From Chthoniobacterales bacterium (GTDB lineage Bacteria > Verrucomicrobiota > Verrucomicrobiia > Chthoniobacterales > UBA10450): DNA of 64,000 bases. Within the stretch, counting starts at the first letter, position 1. Each line of letters begins with the position of its first letter. The notes beneath the pieces are model-generated. The model was given only the letters and a program-made list of their open reading frames with translations. It was not told where the DNA came from and made no database searches. A program made the position numbers and the translations under genes. The stretch is from positions 124,001 through 188,000 of the forward strand of contig DATENU010000020.1 of assembly GCA_035274845.1 (NCBI GenBank), in the 5' to 3' direction. Below, piece by piece: positions 44,783-57,818 of the stretch.

Positions 44783-45997
44783 TTACCGCGCCAAAGGCGG
44801 CGGGGACGGAGGCGAGACCGGTTCTTCGATGATCCGGATCGGTTCGGGGATATTCATCTTCAGCCCGGAAGGCGCCTGTTCCAGCTTGGCGCCGCGCTGT
44901 CTTTGGATCTGATCGATATCCCGGCGCATTTTGCCTTTGTTCGTGCAGGACGTCATCGCGGTTTCTTCGCTGACGATGTCGGCCTTGTAGGCTTCGAGGA
45001 TCGATTGGTCGAACGTGTGCCACCCCTGGTTCGTGGCCGCTTCGATGATCTCCTGAAACGATTTGTTCTCCGATTCGCCGTAAAGAATGGTTTCGCGCGT
45101 GCGCAGATTGCTGCCCATGATTTCCGTAACGAGCAGACGGCCGCCATTCACCTTGTTCACGAGTCGCTGGCTGACGACGTAGCGGAGCAGTGGGGAGAGG
45201 CGTTGGCGGAGTTGGGCCTCTTCCTCGCGCGGAAACATGCCAAGGATCCGGTTGATGGTCTGGCCGGCATTGGTCGTGTGGAGAGTGGTAAAAACAACGT
45301 GGCCGGTTTCAGAGGCCGTCATCGCTATCTCGAGCGTCTCGCGGTCACGAATTTCGCCGACCAGGATTGCCTTCGGCGCCTGACGCAACGCCGCCCGCAT
45401 GCCATCCGCGAAGTTTGGAAAATCCTTGCCTAACTCGCGCTGGCTGATCGCGGCCTTGCCATGTTCGTGAAAAAATTCGATGGGATCCTCGAGGGTAACG
45501 ATGTGGATATCCTGCGTCTGGTTCAGCTCGTTTATCATCGCCGCCAGGGTGGTGGTCTTGCCGGTCCCCGTCCCGCCGGTGAGAAGAATGATGCCGTCCT
45601 TTTCCTTGACCATTTCGCGGAAAATTGGCGGCAGTCCGAGGCTATCGAGCGTCGGAATCTTTGATCGCAGTTTGCGCATCACGATAGCGTGACGGCCATT
45701 CTGTTTGAAGATGTTGACCCGGAAGCGGGCGATATTTTCGATGGCGTAGCTGCAATCGCACGACCCTGTGTTGGCGAAGTCCAAACGGAGACGCTCGTTG
45801 CCGTTGATGATTTGCCCAGCCAGTTGCTCGATTTGTTGCGGGGTGAGGACCGATCCCGGCGTGTCGATCTGAAATTCGCTTAACCGGCCGTGGACCTCAA
45901 CCAGCGGCGGCTTTCCCGAGATGAAAAGCAGGTCGGAAACATCCTCGCTGCTTTCGAGCATGCCGGTTAGCAATGCGTCAACTGTCTTCCGGTCCAT
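44783..45997 (-). CDS. pilT: PilT/PilU-type retraction ATPase
   Basis: 404 residues. Walker A reads G-G-T-G-T-G-K-T-T-T, followed by the Asp box I-V-T-L-E-D-P-I-E-F, Walker B (A-I-L-V-G-E-I-R-D-R-E-T) and the His box G-H-V-V-F-T-T-L-H-T-T. This order, with no N-terminal GspE domain, marks PilT or PilU, the hexameric motor that disassembles type IV pili. The C-terminal 35 residues are Pro-rich, which is unusual. The gene is far from pilM-N-O-P in this window and lies behind a cytochrome gene. Confidence 0.9.
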   Translation of the reverse strand: MDRKTVDALLTGMLESSEDVSDLLFISGKPPLVEVHGRLSEFQIDTPGSVLTPQQIEQLAGQIINGNERLRLDFANTGSCDCSYAIENIARFRVNIFKQNGRHAIVMRKLRSKIPTLDSLGLPPIFREMVKEKDGIILLTGGTGTGKTTTLAAMINELNQTQDIHIVTLEDPIEFFHEHGKAAISQRELGKDFPNFADGMRAALRQAPKAILVGEIRDRETLEIAMTASETGHVVFTTLHTTNAGQTINRILGMFPREEEAQLRQRLSPLLRYVVSQRLVNKVNGGRLLVTEIMGSNLRTRETILYGESENKSFQEIIEAATNQGWHTFDQSILEAYKADIVSEETAMTSCTNKGKMRRDIDQIQRQRGAKLEQAPSGLKMNIPEPIRIIEEPVSPPSPPPLAR

Positions 45998-48492: not shown

Positions 48493-48522
48493 AATAGCCC
48501 AGCGCTTTAGCGCTGGGCTATT
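48493..48522. repeat. Perfect palindrome, family E, in a 400-bp gap
   Basis: AATAGCCCAGCGCT and its inverse form 14-bp perfect arms with a two-base loop. There is no T-tract. It lies in the non-coding DNA from 48364 to 48697, between the divergent FTR1 and type II secretion genes. Apart from this palindrome and the leader at 48557, I see nothing in that stretch. Confidence 0.85.
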
Positions 48523-48556
48523 ATCGGAAGACAGCTCGCGGTCGCGACAACAAGCG

Positions 48557-48697
48557 CGCGTGCAGGCAGCGTGGGCAACATCGACACTGATTTCTGCCAT
48601 CCGCGGCGCCGAGATTCAGTTCAAATTCGAGATTTCTTTTACAATCTTCGCACGAAGATCTGACATACGATTTCGTGGATTGTGCCTAACTGGGCAC
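48557..48697 (+). promoter_or_regulatory. Conserved pseudopilin leader, copy A
   Basis: This stretch matches, in sense orientation, the leaders of gspG copies 1 and 2 (minus strand, 54177-54317 and 54811-54949). Shared blocks include GAGATTTCTTTTACA and GACAYACGATTTCG, then RTYGTGYCTAACT and ATGAAAA. A weak hairpin forms around the CGATTTCG block. Here the leader runs into a 15-codon open frame instead of gspG, and gspH begins 75 bp further on. Confidence 0.75.
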
Positions 48698-48745
48698 ATG
48701 AAAAGGTCCCGGCGCAATGGGTTCGTCCCCAGGCCTATCTTGTGA
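48698..48745 (+). pseudogene. 15-codon remnant or leader peptide after the pseudopilin leader
   Basis: ATG at 48698 occupies the position of the gspG start in the homologous leaders and begins M-K-R, close to the M-K-K of gspG, then stops after 15 codons (M-K-R-S-R-R-N-G-F-V-P-R-P-I-L). It may be all that is left of a lost gspG copy, or a short upstream frame that affects gspH. Confidence 0.45.
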
Positions 48746-48772
48746 TTTGCGGCGAAGCACGTAACTTTTCCC

Positions 48773-49246
48773 ATGAAACGCGAGGGAGGATTTACGTTGA
48801 TGGAGCTGGCGATTGCGGTCGTCATTCTCGTCATCATCCTCATGCTGGCGGTGCCGAGCATGAACGGTGTCCTGGCGGATCGGCGCCTGCGCAAGTCGCT
48901 CGATGCCTTTAACAGCCTTGTCCGCCAGGCTCACGAGCGGAGCATCGCCGAGCGGCGTTCCTATTTGATCATGTGGCGGGAGGGCAATTTGGTCTTGCGG
49001 CCGGAAGCCCTTCTTCGGGGAGAAGACCGTGAGCCGGTGGCCGTGTGGAAATTCAACAAGGGCGAATCGCTGCGCATTTCATTTCCTTCGGCCTTGATCG
49101 ACGATCCGCCGCCGGAGTGGATCTTTTGGTCGTCAGGCAACTGTGAGCCTGCCGTCGTTACATATCGGGGAAGAAACGGCGGGTGGACGGCGAGGTATTC
49201 CGCCCTCACGGCCCGCGCCGAAGTTTCAAACTATGTGGCGCGATAA
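48773..49246 (+). CDS. gspH: Type II secretion minor pseudopilin GspH
   Basis: 157 residues. The type III prepilin signal is K-R-E-G-G with cleavage before F-T-L-M-E-L-A-I-A-V, Gly at -1 and Glu at +5, then a long hydrophobic helix. The globular part is short and beta-rich. The order H-I-J-K-L-M that follows defines a type II secretion system. GspH is a minor pseudopilin near the tip. It overlaps gspI by 14 bases. Confidence 0.82.
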   Translation: MKREGGFTLMELAIAVVILVIILMLAVPSMNGVLADRRLRKSLDAFNSLVRQAHERSIAERRSYLIMWREGNLVLRPEALLRGEDREPVAVWKFNKGESLRISFPSALIDDPPPEWIFWSSGNCEPAVVTYRGRNGGWTARYSALTARAEVSNYVAR

Positions 49247-49634
49247 ACGAAGGCCAAGCGCGTTCGCGCTTTACGAAGTGCTGCTCGGCCTGGCGATTTT
49301 CGCCGTGGGCGTTATCGCGCTGGGCAAATCGGCTCAAAATTGCATCAACGCCAGCGGCCTGAGTTCGCAGGAAGATCGGGTGCGCCAAATCCTGGCCAAC
49401 CGCATGGCCGAAGTCCAGGCGACTCCGGGATTTCCCGACCGGCGCAAGGAAATAAAAATCGATACCGGGTATGGCGAGGTAAGACTGATTCAGACGAGCG
49501 AGCCGGCGGGCCTGAAGGGGGACAAAAACGTCGAGCTACAAGGGATCAACGTAGTGAGGCTGCGGGCGGAGTGGACCCGGAACGGGATCGAGCAGGTGAG
49601 GAAGATCGATTTCTATGTTTATCGCAATGGTTAA
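49233..49634 (+). CDS. gspI: Type II secretion minor pseudopilin GspI
   Basis: 133 residues from ATG 49233. The prepilin signal R-R-P-S-A with cleavage before F-A-L-Y-E-V-L-L-G-L has Ala rather than Gly at -1; Glu at +5 is kept. A hydrophobic helix and a small alpha/beta domain follow. Position between gspH and gspJ supports the name. It overlaps gspJ by 20 bases. Confidence 0.8.
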   Translation: MWRDKRRPSAFALYEVLLGLAIFAVGVIALGKSAQNCINASGLSSQEDRVRQILANRMAEVQATPGFPDRRKEIKIDTGYGEVRLIQTSEPAGLKGDKNVELQGINVVRLRAEWTRNGIEQVRKIDFYVYRNG

Positions 49635-50238
49635 AGGGCGCCGTTCCCGCGGGTTTACGCTCCTCGAAATCGCGCTGGCCGCGGGCATTCTGGGAATGAT
49701 GTGCCTGGCGATTTATCGCTTCGTGCAATCAAACATCACGGTCCTGCGCCTCAATGCGTCCGAAACAATGGAAGAAGCGCGTTACTCGGGATTGCTCGAT
49801 CTTCTGACCACCGAGTGGCAGGAGCTGCCGCCGGGTGTCGGCGCGCTGAGCGGCGAACCTTTCAAGTTCAACGACCGACCCCGCGATGAGATCACCTGGT
49901 TTTGTTCAACCGGTCCCGGGCTCCTGACCCGCTACGCCGAAGGCGAATTTGCCGTTCGCATGCGGCTGCGGCCGATGGAGAAGAGTGACAAAATGCAGCT
50001 GGGGTTTCTGCGCAGGCCACGGGACGCCGCGGAAGGCTCTGACGACGGGGAAACCTGGGTTCCGGTGATGGATGACGTGCGCGGGATGCGCATTCGATAT
50101 TTCGATCCGCGATTGAACGCCTGGGTCGATCGATGGACCGATTCCTCGACTCTACCTCGACTCGTCGAAGTAATTCTGGAGAGGCCAAATCGGGCAAACT
50201 GGCAGGCAATTATCGCCCTGGGGCGAACTCCTCTCTAA
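49615..50238 (+). CDS. gspJ: Type II secretion minor pseudopilin GspJ
   Basis: 207 residues from ATG 49615, which has GAGGAAG about ten bases upstream. The signal is R-R-S-R-G with cleavage before F-T-L-L-E-I-A-L-A-A. The globular domain is longer than in GspH and GspI, as usual for GspJ. The TAA stop shares its last base with the ATG of gspK (TAATG). GspI, GspJ and GspK form the pseudopilus tip complex. Confidence 0.84.
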   Translation: MFIAMVKGRRSRGFTLLEIALAAGILGMMCLAIYRFVQSNITVLRLNASETMEEARYSGLLDLLTTEWQELPPGVGALSGEPFKFNDRPRDEITWFCSTGPGLLTRYAEGEFAVRMRLRPMEKSDKMQLGFLRRPRDAAEGSDDGETWVPVMDDVRGMRIRYFDPRLNAWVDRWTDSSTLPRLVEVILERPNRANWQAIIALGRTPL

Positions 50239-51254
50239 TGGTTAAACAGAAACCAGCGGCGGCCGATGAGGCGCGTCCCGGCAAGGTCGGGCGCGATTTC
50301 GTTCCCGTGTCCAAACGGCGCCGCTTCCGCCGGGCGCGGGGCGCCGCCATCTTGCTTTCGCTTTGGGCCCTTTTCTTACTCAGCGCGATGATCATTTCAT
50401 GGGCGCTCGATATCGGCACCAAGGTCACGAATTCAGGCTACGCGAACCGGTCGCTCGAGGCAGTGGCGATGGCCTGTTCCGGCGTGGACGTGGCGATGCA
50501 TCCCATGGTTCTGCCGAACTCGCCGGTGCTTAGAGGAGGGTTCGCACCGGGCCAAAGCTACGAAGCTCATATTACCGGGGAGGCAGGGCGCCTGAATTTG
50601 AATTTGATCGTGGCCGCGATGCTGGGCGGGCAGGATCCCCTTGGTCACCGCGAGCTGCTGCGAAAATTCCTGGAAGTCAAAGGCATCGACTTAAACGACC
50701 GCGAGCGGATGATCGATTGCCTGATCGACTGGATTGATCCCGACAACCTGGTTCAAATTAATGGAGCGGAAGACGAGCCGGGTTATAAGCCGGCCAACAA
50801 ACCACTGGCGAACCTGGAAGATTTGAAACGTGTGCGGGGTTGGGACGAATTCACTTCCCGGCCCGGCTGGGACGAGGACCTGACCCTGAAGAGTGACCCG
50901 CCCGGCTCGATCGATTTGCAGTGGGCCACGCGCGACGTCCTCCTGTCCTTGCCCGGAATAACGGATGGCATGGTCGATCGCTTTTTGTCCCTGCGCCGCG
51001 GCCCTGACGAAGAAGAGGGCACCGAAGACGATTTCGTTTTTAAGACCCCGCAAGACGTTCAAGTTGCGCTGGGCCTGCAGGCGGCGCAGTATGCTCAACT
51101 TGGACAATTAGTCACTATTACTCAGCCTGGCCAACCACAAGTACTCCGCATCGTCAGCATAGGGAAATCTGGAGCCGTAACCCGAACCGTGCGAGTGGTG
51201 GTCCGCAAAGCAGGAGGCGTTCAATTAGTCCCCGGAACCTGGAAGGAACTTTAA
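50238..51254 (+). CDS. gspK: Type II secretion minor pseudopilin GspK
   Basis: 338 residues from ATG 50238. A long basic leader ends in R-R-A-R-G before A-A-I-L-L-S-L-W-A-L-F-L-L, so there is Gly at -1 and no Glu at +5, as known for GspK. The large globular part includes G-E-A-G-R-L-N-L-N-L and W-I-D-P-D, conserved in GspK. GspK caps the pseudopilus tip. The stop lies just before the poorly defined start of gspL. Confidence 0.85.
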   Translation: MVKQKPAAADEARPGKVGRDFVPVSKRRRFRRARGAAILLSLWALFLLSAMIISWALDIGTKVTNSGYANRSLEAVAMACSGVDVAMHPMVLPNSPVLRGGFAPGQSYEAHITGEAGRLNLNLIVAAMLGGQDPLGHRELLRKFLEVKGIDLNDRERMIDCLIDWIDPDNLVQINGAEDEPGYKPANKPLANLEDLKRVRGWDEFTSRPGWDEDLTLKSDPPGSIDLQWATRDVLLSLPGITDGMVDRFLSLRRGPDEEEGTEDDFVFKTPQDVQVALGLQAAQYAQLGQLVTITQPGQPQVLRIVSIGKSGAVTRTVRVVVRKAGGVQLVPGTWKEL

Positions 51255-51312
51255 TATCGAGACGGAAGTAAAACGCAGTTACCTGATTCCGGCCGCGGGG
51301 GGCTGGGACCTG

Positions 51313-52491
51313 GTGCGCATGGCGCAACACAACGGCGCCTGGGAAGTGCGCGGTGTGGCGTCTCTCGACGAGGCGGCGGAACTGCTGCGTCCGGGCGACG
51401 ACATCGTGCTCGCGCTCCCCCTGGACCTCGTCCTGGCGCAACGCCTCCAGCTGCCCACCACCGATCCCTCGGAGTTCGTCGAGATGGTCCGGATCCAGGT
51501 CGAAAAAGCGATGCCGTACTCGACGGATGAAATGACGACCGATTCGGAAATCATTTCCCAGAGCGAAACCGGCAGTGTCATTTCCGCCGTGGCGGTGCAC
51601 AATGAGAAACTAAACCAGCTCGCCGCGCCTCTGCTTTCCCGAGGGCTGATTCCACGGCAGGTCACGGTTTACGCGGTGCATCGAGCGGCCACCCACGCGC
51701 CGCAGGGGACCTCCCTCCTGATTTATCCGGAAAGTGATTCCATCGTTTGCGCCATCGCGGAGGAAGGCAAATTGAGTTTCACCTCCACTCTCGATGCGGC
51801 CGACCCCCTCCAACTCCAGCGCGATTTGCCGCAACTCGCCCTGAGCGCGGAGCTACAGGGCATCAACACTTCCGCGCCGCGAATTCTCCTCGCGGAAAGT
51901 TTATTCGAACTGCGCGACACCGTGGAGGGCATTTTCGCCATGCCGTCCGAATTGATCGCGATCGAGGCGCCGCCGGCCGAAACGAAGCTGAACCTTCTTC
52001 CCGAGAGCTGGCGGCAACGCCGTGCTCAACTCGTCAGGCAAAAGGATTGGCGAAAACGCCTCCTCATCCTCGCTGGCGCGTATGCCGGCGTGCTTCTCCT
52101 TTTCTTGGCCTATCTCGTTTATCTCCGGGTGCAGATTCGACAGTTGAATAAGCGGATCTCGCGCGATGCGCCCCGCACGGAATTTGTCAAGACAACGGAA
52201 GCCCGATGGAAGGCGCTCGCCCCGGCGATCGACCCACGCTATTACCCGATCGAAGTCATTCTCCATCTCTTCGATAGCCTGCCCTCCGCGGACGTTCGAA
52301 TTACCGTTTTCAACCAATCGGCCAAGCAAATCTCAGTGGATGGGGAAGCGAACTCGGCGGCGCTGGCCTACCAGTTTGCCGAAAAAGTAAAGAAGAACCC
52401 GGATCTGCAGGCGTTTCAGTTCGAGCTGGGCGCGCCCCGACTCCTGCCTAACGACCACGCCCAGTTTCGCCTGGAGGGAAAACCGAAATGA
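51313..52491 (+). CDS. gspL: Type II secretion GspL-like cytoplasmic/inner membrane protein
   Basis: 392 residues from GTG 51313. The frame is open further up, and the 19 codons before the GTG (K-R-S-Y-L-I-P-A-A-G-G-W-D-L) look protein-like. An ATC at 51256 with AAGGA seven bases upstream may be the real, non-standard start. A split actin-like domain (1-220) is followed by the N-L-L-P-E-S-W motif, a membrane helix (about 245-267), and a ferredoxin-like periplasmic domain. GspL anchors the secretion ATPase GspE. It overlaps gspM by ATGA. Confidence 0.78.
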   Translation: MRMAQHNGAWEVRGVASLDEAAELLRPGDDIVLALPLDLVLAQRLQLPTTDPSEFVEMVRIQVEKAMPYSTDEMTTDSEIISQSETGSVISAVAVHNEKLNQLAAPLLSRGLIPRQVTVYAVHRAATHAPQGTSLLIYPESDSIVCAIAEEGKLSFTSTLDAADPLQLQRDLPQLALSAELQGINTSAPRILLAESLFELRDTVEGIFAMPSELIAIEAPPAETKLNLLPESWRQRRAQLVRQKDWRKRLLILAGAYAGVLLLFLAYLVYLRVQIRQLNKRISRDAPRTEFVKTTEARWKALAPAIDPRYYPIEVILHLFDSLPSADVRITVFNQSAKQISVDGEANSAALAYQFAEKVKKNPDLQAFQFELGAPRLLPNDHAQFRLEGKPK

Positions 52492-53033
52492 TGCCCGCCT
52501 GGTACCACCGGATGAACCGACGGGAGCGCTTTCTGGCCGCGATCGTGGCCGGGACCGTCTTTTTTCTCCTTAATCTCTACGTTTGGGGCAAACTTTTCAG
52601 CTCGCTCGACGCCGCCCGCGCGGAGCTGGCCGAGCAAAAAGCGACCCGCAAAGCCCAGGAGGTTTATATCAAGGAGCGCGACCTGTGGAACACTCGGTCG
52701 GAATGGCTCAAGGCTCATCAGCCGGTTCTGAAAGGGCCGGGAGAAGCCTCTACTCTTCTCGACCAGATCAAAGGTGTGGCCAGCAAGCACAATGTGCTGA
52801 TTGAAAACCCGGCCATCGGCACCAGCGACGCCACGCCGGATCGCCAGTCGGTTTTCGCTTCCATCGACACCAAGAGTCCCTGGCCGCCGCTCCTCCATTT
52901 CCTCTACGACGTTCAGCAGCCGGAATCGTTCGTGGTTTTTGAAAACGTGACTCTTAACATCGACCCCTCCGATCCGACGATGATGCGCGGGAAATTCAAG
53001 ATTGCGCGCTGGTTTGCGCCGGCCGGAAAATAA
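52488..53033 (+). CDS. gspM: Type II secretion GspM/PilO-like protein
   Basis: 181 residues: a short cytoplasmic tail with R-M-N-R-R-E-R-F, one membrane helix (about 17-34), a coiled coil (35-75) and a small alpha/beta domain. This is the GspM layout, and the gene overlaps gspL by four bases. GspM and GspL form the inner membrane part of the assembly platform. Confidence 0.78.
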   Translation: MMPAWYHRMNRRERFLAAIVAGTVFFLLNLYVWGKLFSSLDAARAELAEQKATRKAQEVYIKERDLWNTRSEWLKAHQPVLKGPGEASTLLDQIKGVASKHNVLIENPAIGTSDATPDRQSVFASIDTKSPWPPLLHFLYDVQQPESFVVFENVTLNIDPSDPTMMRGKFKIARWFAPAGK

Positions 53034-53084: not shown

Positions 53085-53747
53085 ATGAGAATTATGAAGA
53101 CCAGGACCGTTCTTCTCGTGCTCGCGGGCACCATGCCGTTGCGCTTCCTCGCGGCGGACGATGTCCCGAAGCCGTTCACCTTCGCGCGTTACCAGGCGAT
53201 GCTGGATCGATCACCCTTTGCCGTGGCGACGGCGGTGGTGGCGCCGGTGGTCGCGCCGAATTTTGCCAAGGACCTTTACATTGCCAATGCGGCCCATTCC
53301 GCTGATGGCGACATGGTCACGCTCGCCTCGAACGCGGACAAGAATTTCAAAAAATACCTGACGACCAACCAGACCGAAGAGGGCTACACGATCACCAACA
53401 TCGAATGGTCGGACAAAGTGGGTGCGACCAAGGTGACGATCACGAAGGATGGGCAGACCGCGACTCTGTCGTTTAATGAAGCCCTCCTTCACGCGCCGGT
53501 GGCCACCGGTGGGCAGAATCCAAACCCGGCCAAGGCGGCGATCGAGCAGCAACAGGTCCCGCCGCCGCCGGGCGTTCCACTTCAGCCGGTTGTGCCGGGC
53601 GTGACTGTGCCCCAGGCGGTCCAGCCGCCAGCCAGTTTCCAGAAACCAGCCCCGGTGCCGATGCTGCCGTCGCCGCCGCCGCGGGTGCGAGGCGTTATTC
53701 CACGCAATCCCGCCGCGGCGAAAGACCCGGGCGCTGAGCCGGAGTAA
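53085..53747 (+). CDS. Exported Pro-rich protein at the end of the secretion operon
   Basis: 220 residues with a signal peptide (1-24). A small domain (about 30-130, D-V-P-K-P-F-T-F-A-R-Y) is followed by a Pro/Val/Gln-rich tail that ends P-P-P-R-V-R-G-V-I-P-R-N-P. By position it may take the place of a GspC-like periplasmic linker, but I cannot show homology. Its tail is copied twice more downstream, behind gspG copies 2 and 3. Its stop is four bases from that of the convergent gspG copy 1. Confidence 0.6.
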   Translation: MRIMKTRTVLLVLAGTMPLRFLAADDVPKPFTFARYQAMLDRSPFAVATAVVAPVVAPNFAKDLYIANAAHSADGDMVTLASNADKNFKKYLTTNQTEEGYTITNIEWSDKVGATKVTITKDGQTATLSFNEALLHAPVATGGQNPNPAKAAIEQQQVPPPPGVPLQPVVPGVTVPQAVQPPASFQKPAPVPMLPSPPPRVRGVIPRNPAAAKDPGAEPE

Positions 53748-53750
53748 ATC

Positions 53751-54176
53751 CTAGCCGCCCCAGTCGTCGTCGGCCGTATCGGCTTTCCGGTCCCGTCCAG
53801 CCGAATAGAGATCGTATCCTGTGGAGTTCTTGCGGCCGGGAGAGAGATAAATGTAATTGTTGCCCCACGGATCTCTCGGAATTTCCTTGAAGAGCTGATG
53901 CCAACGCTGAGGCTTGGGATCGCTGGAAGGCTGCGTAACGAGAGCTTGCAGACCTTGTTCGGTCGTGGGTGGATAGCCGTTCAAGCTTTCGTAAAGCTTT
54001 AGTTGCGTGCCAATCGACTGAATGTCGGCTTGGACTGCCACTGACGTGGCCACGTCCCTGGTCCCAACTATCTTGCTAATCGCCACTCCCAAAAGAACGA
54101 CGATGATGCTGATCACCAGCATGATTTCCAACAGAGTAAACGCGCTCTGTGGACCTAGGAGCACTGGTTTTTTCAT
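53751..54176 (-). CDS. gspG: Type II secretion major pseudopilin GspG, copy 1
   Basis: 141 residues from ATG 54176. The prepilin signal is G-P-Q-S-A with cleavage before F-T-L-L-E-I-M-L-V-I; Ala is at -1. The GspG core Q-L-K-L-Y-E-S-L-N-G-Y-P, E-Q-G-L-Q-A-L and K-D/R-D-P-W-G-N-N-Y-I-Y is complete, as is the acidic D-T-A-D-D-D-W end that binds calcium in GspG. This copy differs from the other two mainly after the hydrophobic helix (G-T-R-D-V-A-T). It is the most distal of three tandem copies. Confidence 0.93.
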   Translation of the reverse strand: MKKPVLLGPQSAFTLLEIMLVISIIVVLLGVAISKIVGTRDVATSVAVQADIQSIGTQLKLYESLNGYPPTTEQGLQALVTQPSSDPKPQRWHQLFKEIPRDPWGNNYIYLSPGRKNSTGYDLYSAGRDRKADTADDDWGG

Positions 54177-54317
54177 TTGCTCAGTTAGACACAATCTCGA
54201 AATCGTGTGTCAGAGCTGCGTGCGAAGACTGTAAAAGATATCTCATCTTTCAACCGAACCTGGGTAGCGCGGACGGCAGAGAGATTAGGGCCGATGTTGC
54301 CCACGCCGCCTCCACGC
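54177..54317 (-). promoter_or_regulatory. Conserved pseudopilin leader, copy B (before gspG copy 1)
   Basis: Homologous to 48557-48697 and 54811-54949. Close to the start codon GACACA and TGTGTC pair perfectly around the CGATTTCG block. The leader ends directly at the ATG and has no clear Shine-Dalgarno, so the hairpin may matter for translation. Confidence 0.7.
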
Positions 54318-54382
54318 GTGCGAGGCGTGATTCCACGCAATCCCTCCGCGGCAAGGACGCGCCGGGCGCGGAGCCGGAGTAA
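54291..54382 (+). pseudogene. Duplicated tail of the 53085 gene, copy 2
   Basis: It reads P-M-L-P-T-P-P-P-R-V-R-G-V-I-P-R-N-P, one residue away from the original tail, then shifts frame; the GAGCCGGAGTAA end is kept. It has no start of its own and is a hitchhiker of the gspG duplication. Confidence 0.8.
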
Positions 54383-54384
54383 GC

Positions 54385-54810
54385 TTAGCCGCCCCAGTCG
54401 TCGTCGGCGCTATCCGCCTTGCGATCTGGTCCGGCTGAATAAAGATCGTATGAGGTAGAGTTCCGCCGGCCGGGAGAGAGATAGATATAGTTATTTCCCC
54501 AGGGATCTTTCGGAATTTCCTTGAAGAGCTGATACCACCGCTGTGGTTTCGGGTCGGTGGAAGGTTGAGTCACGAGAGCCTGGAGTCCCTGCTCGGTGGA
54601 CGGTGCGTATCCATTCATGCTTTCGTAAAGCTTTAGCTGCGTGCCAATCGCCTGGATGTCCGCTTTCACGGCCACACCCTTGGCCATTCCCGTGGTATTA
54701 CCGAGCTTGTTGATCGCCACGCCCAAAAGAATGACGATGATACTAATCACCAGCATGATTTCCAACAGAGTGAACGCGCTCTGTCGACCGAGGAGCATTG
54801 GCTTTTTCAT
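54385..54810 (-). CDS. gspG: Type II secretion major pseudopilin GspG, copy 2
   Basis: 141 residues from ATG 54810. The signal is G-R-Q-S-A before F-T-L-L-E-I-M-L. It is nearly identical to copy 3 in the mature part (only a few changes, such as P-S-T for P-T-T), and about four fifths identical to copy 1. All GspG core residues and the acidic end are present, so it is probably functional. It is preceded by the conserved leader. Confidence 0.93.
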   Translation of the reverse strand: MKKPMLLGRQSAFTLLEIMLVISIIVILLGVAINKLGNTTGMAKGVAVKADIQAIGTQLKLYESMNGYAPSTEQGLQALVTQPSTDPKPQRWYQLFKEIPKDPWGNNYIYLSPGRRNSTSYDLYSAGPDRKADSADDDWGG

Positions 54811-54949
54811 ATGCGTAGTTAGGCACGATGTTCGAAATCGTGTGTCAGAGCGGTGTGCGAAGACTGTAAAAGAAATCTCATCTTCAACCGAATCTGGATA
54901 GCGCGGCCGGCAGAGATTAGGGCCGATGTTGCCCACGCTGCCTCCACGC
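54811..54949 (-). promoter_or_regulatory. Conserved pseudopilin leader, copy C (before gspG copy 2)
   Basis: Same leader as copies A and B. Here CACGAT and ATCGTG form the stem around the T-T-C-G-A-A loop. The stem is kept in copies B and C although its bases differ, which suggests selection for structure. Confidence 0.7.
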
Positions 54950-55015
54950 GTGCGAGGCGCTATTCCACGCAATTCCTCCGCAGCGAAGAACGCGCCGGGC
55001 GCGGAGCCGGAGTAA
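54923..55015 (+). pseudogene. Duplicated tail of the 53085 gene, copy 3
   Basis: It matches the tail DNA of the 53085 gene and of copy 2, ending GAGCCGGAGTAA two bases before the stop of gspG copy 3. Frame is not kept throughout. It is a remnant of duplication. Confidence 0.75.
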
Positions 55016-55017
55016 GC

Positions 55018-55434
55018 CTAGTTGCCCCAGTCGTCGTCGGCGGTATCCGCCCGGCGATCTGGTCCGGCCGAATAAAGATCGTATGAGGTCGGGTTCCGCC
55101 GGCCGGGAGAGAGATAAATATAGTTATTTCCCCAGGGATCTTTCGGAATCTCTTTGAAGAGTTGATACCACCGCTGCGGTTTCGGGTCGGTGGAAGGTTG
55201 GGTCACGAGAGCCTGCAGTCCCTGCTCGGTGGTCGGCGCGTATCCATTCATGCTTTCGTAAAGCTTTAGCTGTGTGCCAATCGCCTGGATGTCCGCCTTT
55301 ACGGCCACGCCCTTGGCCATTCCCGTGGTATTACCGAGCTTGTTGATCGCTACTCCCAAAAGAATGACGATGATGCTGATCACCAGCATGATTTCCAACA
55401 GGGTGAACGCGCTTTGGCGATGGTTTGTTCTCAT
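55018..55434 (-). CDS. gspG: Type II secretion major pseudopilin GspG, copy 3
   Basis: 138 residues from ATG 55434. The N-terminus differs (M-R-T-N-H-R-Q-S-A before F-T-L-L-E), because this copy lacks the common leader and directly follows the unknown 354-aa gene with a five-base gap. The mature part is almost identical to copy 2. It is probably expressed from the gspF operon, whereas copies 1 and 2 may depend on their own leaders. Confidence 0.93.
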   Translation of the reverse strand: MRTNHRQSAFTLLEIMLVISIIVILLGVAINKLGNTTGMAKGVAVKADIQAIGTQLKLYESMNGYAPTTEQGLQALVTQPSTDPKPQRWYQLFKEIPKDPWGNNYIYLSPGRRNPTSYDLYSAGPDRRADTADDDWGN

Positions 55435-55439
55435 GGCGA

Positions 55440-56504
55440 TTAACGATCAGTCTGGAGCTGATAATCTGTTTTATCCCAGAGATATTTCAATTGAATCTGG
55501 GTCGCGCGGATGGCCGAAATGGGCGTCCCAGCGCCGCCAATGATGAGGAGATCGTTCGTTCCCACCTTCAAGTTACTGGCCGGCACCAGCTTTTGGGCGC
55601 GGAGCCAGCCGGTGTATTGAAAGCTCATGCCGCGGATGAGCGACTGGGTCATCCCACGATATCCAGGATCGGCCAGCTCCGGCAGAGTGATGGCAACCGC
55701 CCCGAGACTTTCGCCATTGAGGAAAACTTCGGGCGGCGAAGCAATATTGGGGCTCGCCACTTCGAACGTGAGCAGCGCCATGAGCGGTTCCGATTCGAGG
55801 CCGAATTGAAACGCTGCGCCTTGGGAAACGCTCGCGCCGATCCGGATCGTTTCATCCGCCAGCGACGCAGTCACGGTGCCGAATTTTTCCGAATCATGTT
55901 CCGCCGGATGGAGCGGGGCCATCGTGGAGAAAGGCTCGGGAATCAGGTCGCGGTGTTCGGCGCTAACCGGGTGGAGCACTTCCGCATTCGCCATCCAATC
56001 CATGTAGGCGCCGCGGATCGTTTTCCCATCTCCCGGAACTTCCAGGTCGATCGTGGAGACGCCCACCATCGGCACCATGAGACTTTCCGAAGTGGAGAGG
56101 CCGGTGCCTCCACCGAGCTGGCCGGATTGCACTACGATCGTGCCCAATTCATTCCAGGCGATTAGACGCGGTTGTTGCTCGGCGTTGTCGTCGAAAAACA
56201 AACGGAAAAATAGCATCTGGAGGTCAGGACTCGGGTGATCGAGGCGGATGCGGAAAATGGTCTTCTCGGGAAGCCCGGGAGTTTTGTCCCCGGGAACGAG
56301 CGAAACCGACTCGACCCAATCCGGGGTCGATTGCGGCTTGGAATTGGCCGCCGGGATTTGGCGAAGATCAAGCCAGGCGCTCTCGACATTTTTGCCGGAA
56401 GTCTTCGGGGTATCCCTGGAGAGCCTTCCGACCAGCACGTCCTGGCCGCGAGTCGAGACGACCGCGCAGAGAAAAAGGAAGAACGCAGCGGTCCGATTTA
56501 GCAT
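55440..56504 (-). CDS. Exported protein of unknown function in the secretion locus
   Basis: 354 residues with a signal peptide (1-20). The rest is beta-rich without cysteines, with G-A-Y-M-D-W-M-A-N-A-E-V-L-H-P and a C-terminal Ig-like look (A-S-N-L-K-V-G-T-N-D-L-L-I-I-G-G-A-G). I do not recognise a family. It lies between gspF and gspG copy 3 in the same direction, so it may be a secretion accessory protein or a substrate. Confidence 0.6.
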   Translation of the reverse strand: MLNRTAAFFLFLCAVVSTRGQDVLVGRLSRDTPKTSGKNVESAWLDLRQIPAANSKPQSTPDWVESVSLVPGDKTPGLPEKTIFRIRLDHPSPDLQMLFFRLFFDDNAEQQPRLIAWNELGTIVVQSGQLGGGTGLSTSESLMVPMVGVSTIDLEVPGDGKTIRGAYMDWMANAEVLHPVSAEHRDLIPEPFSTMAPLHPAEHDSEKFGTVTASLADETIRIGASVSQGAAFQFGLESEPLMALLTFEVASPNIASPPEVFLNGESLGAVAITLPELADPGYRGMTQSLIRGMSFQYTGWLRAQKLVPASNLKVGTNDLLIIGGAGTPISAIRATQIQLKYLWDKTDYQLQTDR

Positions 56505-56522: not shown

Positions 56523-57818
56523 TCAGTGCGGTTGAAACTGCAAACTATGTGTCATCTCGAACACCGCCGAGAGGATACTGTAAACCACGAATCCGACCAC
56601 AATCGCGATGAGCACGATAATAACGGGCGGGACCAGGGCCGAGATGGTCTTGACCGTGCGGTCCAGCTCCCGCTCGTAAACGTCAGCGATAGTTTGCATG
56701 GTCTGCGCGAAATGGCCCGTCTGTTCGCCCACCGCCATCATGTCGGTGAACAATTCCGGGAAAAGTCGCTCCTCGCTCAGGGCGGTCGAGAGCGTCGCAC
56801 CATCGATGACGGCGCGCCGGACATCCGCGATCTTTTTTTCCAGATAACGGTTACCCGCGATCTCGCTCACGAGATCGATTGCCTTCAGCAACGGGACGCC
56901 ATTTTCCATCAGGGTTCCCATGGTTCGCGAGAACTGGGCGTAATACCGGTGACGGATCACTCGCCCGTAACCCGGGATCATCAGGCGAAAGCGGTCCCAG
57001 CCGGTTCGCCCCTCGTCCGTGCGGACGAACGCGCGAAAGCCGATCATCACGCCCAGGACCGCCAGGAGACCGAGCCACCAGTAGGCGGTGATGAAATGAT
57101 TCGCGCCCAACAGGATCCTTGTGGGCAAAGGCAGAGTGCCGCCGTTCTGCGACATGAAGCCGACCAGTTGCGGCACCATGAAGGTGATGAAGACCGTGAT
57201 CAGGCCCGCGCCCGCCAGGGCAAGAAACGCCGGATAAATCAGCGCTTGCTGGACGCGGTCCCGCAGATTCTTCGACTGCATCAGGTGCTCGACGAGGCGG
57301 GTAAGAATGTCCGGCAACGCGCCGCTCGCTTCGCCCGCCGCGACGAGATTCACATAGATCGCCGGAAAGATGCGGGGAAAATCGCGCAACGCCTGGGAAA
57401 AACTACGCCCGTCCACCAGGGCCTGGTGCAAAGAGTGGGTCATCGCCTGCACGCGTGGCTGTTTCAGGCGTTTCTCGAGGACCGATAGCCCTTCGTCCAG
57501 GGTCATGCCCGCCTTCAGCAAATGTCCGAGCTGCTCGGTGAAAATGAGCAACTGGCTGTGGGGAATTTTTAGCTTCTGGGATGGGGTCGCGGGAACGGCC
57601 GGCGCCGCGGTTGTCGCCGGAGCCGCGACTGCTTTTGTCGCTGCCCCGTTTTTCCCGCTCTTCGCTGCAGGCGGCTCGCTGGCTACGGCATCGATCCGCA
57701 CCGGGACGTAGTGAAGCTGTTCGATTTGCCGGATGGCGAAGGCGCGATCGGGACAATCCAGGACGCCTTCAACGAGGCCCCCCTGCGCATTCCGAGCGCG
57801 ATACGAAAACTGCGGCAT
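56523..57818 (-). CDS. gspF: Type II secretion inner membrane platform protein GspF
   Basis: 431 residues. Two GspF domains are visible: one after a Lys/Ala/Pro-rich linker (F-T-E-Q-L-G-H-L-L-K-A-G-M-T-L-D-E-G at about 90) and one near 300 (F-S-R-T-M-G-T-L-M-E-N-G-V-P-L-L-K-A-I). Three membrane helices lie at about 195-220, 245-265 and 395-420. The linker (about 50-85) is unusually rich in Ala and Thr. GspF anchors the ATPase and pseudopilin assembly. gspE and gspD are not in the window. Confidence 0.92.
   Translation of the reverse strand: MPQFSYRARNAQGGLVEGVLDCPDRAFAIRQIEQLHYVPVRIDAVASEPPAAKSGKNGAATKAVAAPATTAAPAVPATPSQKLKIPHSQLLIFTEQLGHLLKAGMTLDEGLSVLEKRLKQPRVQAMTHSLHQALVDGRSFSQALRDFPRIFPAIYVNLVAAGEASGALPDILTRLVEHLMQSKNLRDRVQQALIYPAFLALAGAGLITVFITFMVPQLVGFMSQNGGTLPLPTRILLGANHFITAYWWLGLLAVLGVMIGFRAFVRTDEGRTGWDRFRLMIPGYGRVIRHRYYAQFSRTMGTLMENGVPLLKAIDLVSEIAGNRYLEKKIADVRRAVIDGATLSTALSEERLFPELFTDMMAVGEQTGHFAQTMQTIADVYERELDRTVKTISALVPPVIIVLIAIVVGFVVYSILSAVFEMTHSLQFQPH

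Follow-up and report, generated by a model that had tools for sequence, protein, structure and literature searches.

GspG is the major pseudopilin of the T2SS (TIGR01710, PF08334; PulG, XcpT, EpsG), the most abundant of the pseudopilins and the subunit that is required in the greatest number. Several gspG genes within one T2SS cluster, which is the point of likeness to the locus considered here, have been described on chromosome 2 of Cupriavidus metallidurans CH34, where a gsp cluster carries gspEFG and two additional gspG copies (PMC2864759). Lateral acquisition is reported as a possibility for that cluster and, compared by description, the gene tails and captured leader of our locus are absent from what that report says of it. 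For promoter capture by spontaneous tandem duplication the precedent is the set of experiments by Li and Bock, which, as they are described in PMC11111574, resemble our case in that a coding region becomes joined to another promoter through tandem duplication and illegitimate recombination. Most known cases of promoter capture after duplication come from laboratory evolution, and our search of the open-access literature turned up no T2SS in which a two-component operon's promoter had been captured and had spread to two transcription units. Here we describe a three-copy gspG array that was probably formed by tandem duplication with promoter capture and retained under selection.

On the minus strand of the window (the whole stretch of 64,000 nucleotides that was analysed) three uninterrupted gspG frames lie in tandem with a period of 632-634 bp. 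A sequence-only reading of this DNA had described three gspG genes in a row with a 632-633 bp period, which was borne out:

53751..54176, minus strand: gspG copy 1, 141 aa, adjoining the intact gene at 53085 (gene A); diverged body, captured leader
54385..54810, minus strand: gspG copy 2, 141 aa, a recombinant with a copy-1-like leader and a copy-3-like body
55018..55434, minus strand: gspG copy 3, 138 aa, at the ancestral place right behind gene B (stop 55440), as in single-copy relatives

The three copies exceed the curated equivalog cut-off of the NCBIfam GspG model TIGR01710 (113.9, 114.6 and 114.9 bits; cut-off 88.85), match Pfam T2SSG (PF08334) and, in their N-terminal part, N_methyl (PF07963, above cut-off), and align with the solved GspG structures 5wda, 2kep, 3fu1 and 1t92. 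They are the only GspG genes of the whole genome examined (4.54 Mb in 24 contigs, 96% complete); a fourth match consists of a 48-residue prepilin-signal similarity only, and copy 2, used as the query against the wider genome contigs, matched distant GspG proteins only. Family likeness extends to the FTLLE signal-helix and the C-terminal loop pattern D.(Y/F)S.G.D, both kept in all three copies. The class III signal peptide with its hydrophobic N-terminal helix (F-T-L-x-E) reads FTLLEIMLVISII in each copy, and the acidic C-terminal loop, DLYSAG(P/R)DR(K/R)AD(T/S)ADDDW, aligns with the loop of the solved GspG chains, its ligand residues being compared by alignment only. The prepilin signals that had been called intact are indeed present in all three copies, with the qualification that the residue at -1 of the cleavage site (SA^FTLLE) is Ala rather than Gly, in the three copies and in close relatives alike. 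What sets the locus apart from described GspG is this Ala, the presence of three tandem copies and a number of odd residues in copy 1. Divergence among the copies is 7-24%, and none of the three frames is disrupted.

The genes around the array are those of a T2SS locus, with gspF on one side and gspH-M-like genes on the other, an arrangement that is kept in seven relatives:

48773..53033, plus strand: gspH, I, J, K, L and M-like genes, an operon downstream of an inserted fragment
53085..53747, plus strand: gene A, 220 aa, intact and convergent with gspG; the tails described below derive from its 3' end
55440..56504, minus strand: gene B, 354 aa, intact, upstream of copy 3 and between gspF and gspG throughout the genus
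56523..57818, minus strand: gspF-like gene, best match TIGR02120 (E 1.5e-101, 340.6 bits, under its 424 cut-off)

Neither gene A nor gene B has a Pfam or NCBIfam match. Genes of the T2SSE and secretin families are found elsewhere in the genome, with ten T2SSE-family matches genome-wide, and a PilT-like ATPase gene lies near the gsp cluster at window positions 44783-45997. The gene content, including a weak match to the Verru_Chthon cassette model, suggests Verrucomicrobiota as the lineage.

The ancestral state can be read from the relatives. Each of the seven remaining genomes of the genus has a single gspG at the syntenic locus (in G005 the contig stops inside gspF), and the order common to the genus is gspHIJKLM-like genes and gene A on one strand, with gspF, gene B and gspG on the other. 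Of the 83 family and 156 order genomes, this one alone has three gspG matches; in G004 a second gspG-like gene lies away from this locus, and in another family of the order two tandem gspG-like genes, 46 and 51% identical to copy 2, lie ~400 nt apart (G144:C44:29980-31155). In the relatives gspG starts within a few nucleotides of the gene B stop, as does copy 3, whose start codon is 5 nt from that stop. Copy 3 is in the ancestral 5' position, and copy 1, beside the real end of gene A, is in the ancestral 3' position.

Between the copies lie pieces of both flanking genes:

54290..54382, plus strand: gene A 3' end, non-functional copy behind gspG copy 2, 85% to the real tail
54922..55016, plus strand: gene A 3' end, non-functional copy behind gspG copy 3, 82% to the real tail
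54245..54280, minus strand: gene B 3' end fragment upstream of copy 1, 81% over 36 nt to 55482-55517
54883..54917, minus strand: gene B 3' end fragment upstream of copy 2, 77% over 35 nt

The real gene A tail is 53657-53747, and the two tail fragments are 93% identical to each other. Each gspG had been said to be followed by the 3' end of the gene at 53085, functional only in the first instance, and the fragments at 82-85% to the real tail confirm this. The gene B fragments, at 35-37 nt, are short matches of about 80% identity, with E values from 1e-4 to 0.04. Upstream of copies 1 and 2 the spacer runs in the order gene A tail, gene B fragment, leader. Because the duplicated unit carries the tails of both genes, the breakpoints of the first duplication fall in both flanking genes. 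As a first step we picture a single-copy ancestor, with gene A converging on gspG and with gspF and gene B upstream, in which a duplication whose breakpoints lay within the 3' ends of both A and B would have severed a second gspG from its upstream operon. An independent, broken partial duplicate of gspG occupies the same locus in another genus (G075; L027, G075:C103, ~2130-2330 in locus coordinates), where the 3' half of gspG stands out of frame behind a foreign 5' piece, apparently the start of a GYF/DUF4339-type gene; chimeric duplication has therefore taken place at this locus at least twice in the family.

Where did the severed copy obtain its upstream region? In copies 1 and 2 the gene B fragment is separated from the ATG by a stretch of ~70 nt, which we call leader P and which is missing from copy 3 and from the relatives:

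54177..54246, minus strand: leader P of copy 1, with half-sites TTTTAC-N5-TCGCAC-N5-TCTGAC at 54236-54209
54811..54881, minus strand: leader P of copy 2, with half-sites at 54871-54844

Leader P occurs at four sites in the genome: before copies 1 and 2, upstream of gspH, and before a VWA gene on contig C10. The VWA gene heads an operon (G000:C10:152650-156663; L126, L146) in which it is followed by a HisKA/HATPase histidine kinase and an OmpR-type regulator (Response_reg and Trans_reg_C), and the same order of VWA gene, kinase and regulator is found in G006. Four of the 83 family genomes have the VWA gene, and leader P precedes it in all four (in G034 its 5' part only), whereas a search of the 83 genomes found it at no gsp locus of another family genome; the direction of transfer was therefore from the VWA operon to gsp. 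The leaders of copies 1 and 2 are 86% identical, and the gsp leaders differ by 22-26% from the genome's own VWA leader. The duplicate is joined to the promoter region of an identifiable other gene in that P matches the VWA leader. Judged from the compared starts, which read ATGAAAAAACT in the VWA genes of G005 and G006, ATGAAAAAACC in copy 1 and ATGAAAAAACG in the single-copy G001 and G007, the fusion point of leader P and gspG is the start codon. In the second step, then, the ~70-nt promoter region of the VWA operon would have taken the place of everything between the B fragment's end and the gspG start codon, joined at ATGAAAA, the start common to the VWA gene and gspG. As an observation in its own right, the promoter region of this accessory VWA-kinase-regulator operon is unusually conserved.

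Three other accounts of leader P were considered and rejected. It is not a general mobile repeat, having four genomic sites only; nor is it the native promoter of gspG or gspH, as those loci in the relatives are without P and have their own conserved gspH element instead; nor did the VWA gene capture a gsp leader, for P (whole, or in G034 its 5' part) stands at the VWA gene in three genomes whose gsp loci are without it.

A further copy of the chimeric spacer lies on the strand opposite to the gspG array, ~5.5 kb away:

48554..48703, plus strand: chimeric spacer copy (A tail, B tail, leader P), inverted, separate and ~80% identical, upstream of gspH; half-sites at 48637-48664
48738..48772, plus strand: native gspH element, conserved (TTGTGATTTGC...CGTAACTTTT) and kept beside the inserted fragment

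Because this fragment holds the A/B junction, it was copied from the gspG array after leader capture. Our third step is that ~150 bp of the chimeric spacer would have been copied, inverted, to a place upstream of gspH; the fragment, which has an intact native element downstream of it, may be inert. That element (TTGTGATTT...CGTAAC, window 48738-48772; L014-L020 in relatives) ends, in most of the genus's genomes, only a few nucleotides short of the gspH ATG, and this, together with a CTAAC box ~10 nt before the ATG in P, hints at leaderless transcripts in the group. Immediately upstream of the inserted fragment, at window positions 48500-48520, there is a palindromic repeat, CAGCGCTTTAGCGCTGGGCTATT, and a similar one is found upstream of gspH in G006 (L016).

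The history of the copies themselves is not a simple one. Copies 2 and 3 had been described as nearly identical and copy 1 as diverged, and this holds for the gene body, in which, as in the gene A fragments behind it, copies 2 and 3 group together; it does not hold for the 5' region, where copy 1 pairs with copy 2, and copy 3, without the leader, stands apart. These conflicting groupings identify copy 2 as a recombinant, and in place of a plain series of copies we find a chimeric unit made of both flanking genes and a VWA leader. In our fourth step, unequal crossing-over within the part that codes for the N-terminal helix, which explains the origin of copy 2 best, would have given the third gene of the array the leader of copy 1 and the body of copy 3; the pattern would be the same had copy 2 undergone gene conversion by copy 3. 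The three bodies are monophyletic in the tree with good, if not starred, support (92/98), and they have dS values of 0.25 between copies 2 and 3 and of 0.94-1.05 between copy 1 and either of them, the latter near the dS of 0.94 between the species G001 and G007. A comparison with related genomes had been proposed as a way to date the duplications; the locus has a single gspG in 7/7 other genomes of the genus, and the dS values point to two duplications, the first old (dS about 1) and the second younger (dS 0.25). The ages are rough, because the gene A tails (15-18% diverged) are less diverged than the synonymous sites of the bodies. The first, second and fourth steps are visible as relations between sequences, and the copy at gspH is itself observed; the order given to the third and fourth steps is surmised.

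The ratio dN/dS (w) is ~0.1 for every pair of copies and for the relatives, and all three copies have therefore been kept as proteins. The view that every copy is intact thus gains support at the level of function. Could the array nevertheless be without adaptive meaning, a set of illegitimate duplications drifting in one lineage or an artefact of assembly? We consider this very improbable. It would agree with an array that is unique to one genome, with the useless gene tails inside the duplicated units and with the independent broken copy in G075, by which the locus also duplicates by accident, but a dS near 1 at a w of 0.10 means long retention under purifying selection and contradicts drift. 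All frames are intact, moreover, and misassembly of one copy cannot give a divergence of 7-24%. For the same reason the proposal that one or two real copies had been turned into three by the assembly is unlikely, and a collapse or error was rejected for the copy number as assembled.

Copy 1 calls for separate comment, as it has the longest branch (0.20, against 0.018 and 0.007 for the others) and carries the unusual residues V37, R40, T44 and H93. Relative to outgroup G007 it shows a significant excess of change (18 vs 3 sites), and at sites that are at least 90% conserved in ~30 relatives its body has five changes that the other two copies do not share, where copy 2 has a single one and copy 3 has none (a count that leaves out an F to Y change common to the copies). 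From the branch length, the rate excess and the unusual residues it might be supposed that copy 1 has become a distinct pseudopilin, serving another fibre or substrate, with copies 2 and 3 as the standard subunit. We regard this as improbable: with G001 or G006 as the outgroup the rate excess is weak, w is still 0.10, the family features and the C-terminal loop are retained, and at the locus there is neither a second set of minor pseudopilins nor a second gspF.

The aligned leaders share three direct half-sites, TTTTAC-N5-TCGCAC-N5-TCTGAC, with an exact 11-bp period, then a CTAAC box ~20 bp past them, and then the ATG. Among the three gsp copies of the leader the half-sites are invariant (0/18 columns) and the other columns vary at 16/49 (p 0.003), a comparison in which the half-sites were defined after viewing the alignment and in which their conservation is partly inherited because the three leaders are of common ancestry. 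Allowing up to two mismatches, the pattern has four matches in this genome, with 0.19 expected per genome, one in each of the two other genomes of the genus that have the VWA gene, and none in the five without it. Genus-wide, its sites are the VWA promoters (3/3 genomes with the gene) and the three gsp sites only; the gspD- and gspE-like genes (secretin and T2SSE families) elsewhere in the genome have no such pattern. The last half-site lies 34-35 nt from the ATG in copies 1 and 2, as it does for the VWA genes of this genus. OmpR-type regulators generally bind direct repeats of such a period of ~11 bp, and our literature search for OmpR-family regulators with 11-bp direct repeats found none. 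The simplest reading, which we infer from these patterns, is that the half-sites are a candidate operator, and that the VWA operon's own regulator would bind P and would have gained three gsp sites. The CreB/BlrA tag upstream of creD, TTCAC-N6-TTCAC, offers a likeness, being made of direct 5-mers with the same 11-bp period as the half-sites of leader P, beside a histidine kinase/response regulator pair (PMC4689548). Written as 5-mers, leader P reads TTTAC-N6-CGCAC-N6-CTGAC; in contrast to the CreB/BlrA tag, its half-sites have another sequence, there are three repeats, and the gene is a VWA gene and not CreD; nothing points to membership.

Would a demand for more of the major pseudopilin suffice to explain the three copies, with the leader as a chance rescue promoter whose former regulator is irrelevant? 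We think this rather unlikely, if much less so than the two alternatives above. The abundance of GspG among the pseudopilins is in keeping with it, as are similar purifying selection on all bodies and copy 2 and 3 proteins that are ~97% identical. The two extra gspG genes next to gspEFG in C. metallidurans CH34 (PMC2864759, as the cluster is described there) would also agree. Yet the copy 1 protein is 17% different from that of copy 2, with its five body changes at conserved sites, and mere rescue leaves unexplained the invariant half-sites in three gsp leaders, the gspH one included. Mixed fibres or dosage, the functions that the sequence-only reading had put forward, do not stand as the sole novelty; that novelty is likely regulatory, two copies having lost their ancestral place in the operon and acquired a different promoter region.

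In tandem duplication with promoter capture, the reading we prefer, copy 3 would be transcribed with gene B and gspF, as in the relatives, and copies 1 and 2 from leader P, with gspHIJKLM possibly read from P as well as from the intact native element. The response regulator of the VWA operon would then raise the supply of major pseudopilin on its signal. Because GspG is needed in the greatest number, an extra and separately controlled supply under a two-component signal would be a plausible benefit. More tentatively, and as a possibility for which the evidence is nearly balanced, we suggest that the operon of VWA gene, kinase and OmpR-type regulator took over part of the T2SS in one lineage, its promoter/operator having been copied before two of the three gspG genes and before the minor-pseudopilin/assembly operon, with the half-sites kept by selection at all three places.

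Set against promoter capture as Li and Bock's experiments are described in PMC11111574, the promoter here came from a distant locus and not from the adjacent repeat end, and the event is natural, old and under selection, with the captured region copied once more, to a second operon belonging to the T2SS. The survival of the source operon and of single-copy relatives allows this natural case to be read stepwise, from breakpoints and promoter source to re-copying and recombinant. If the operator works, the locus would be a direct, testable example of a conserved secretion machine wired to a new signal.
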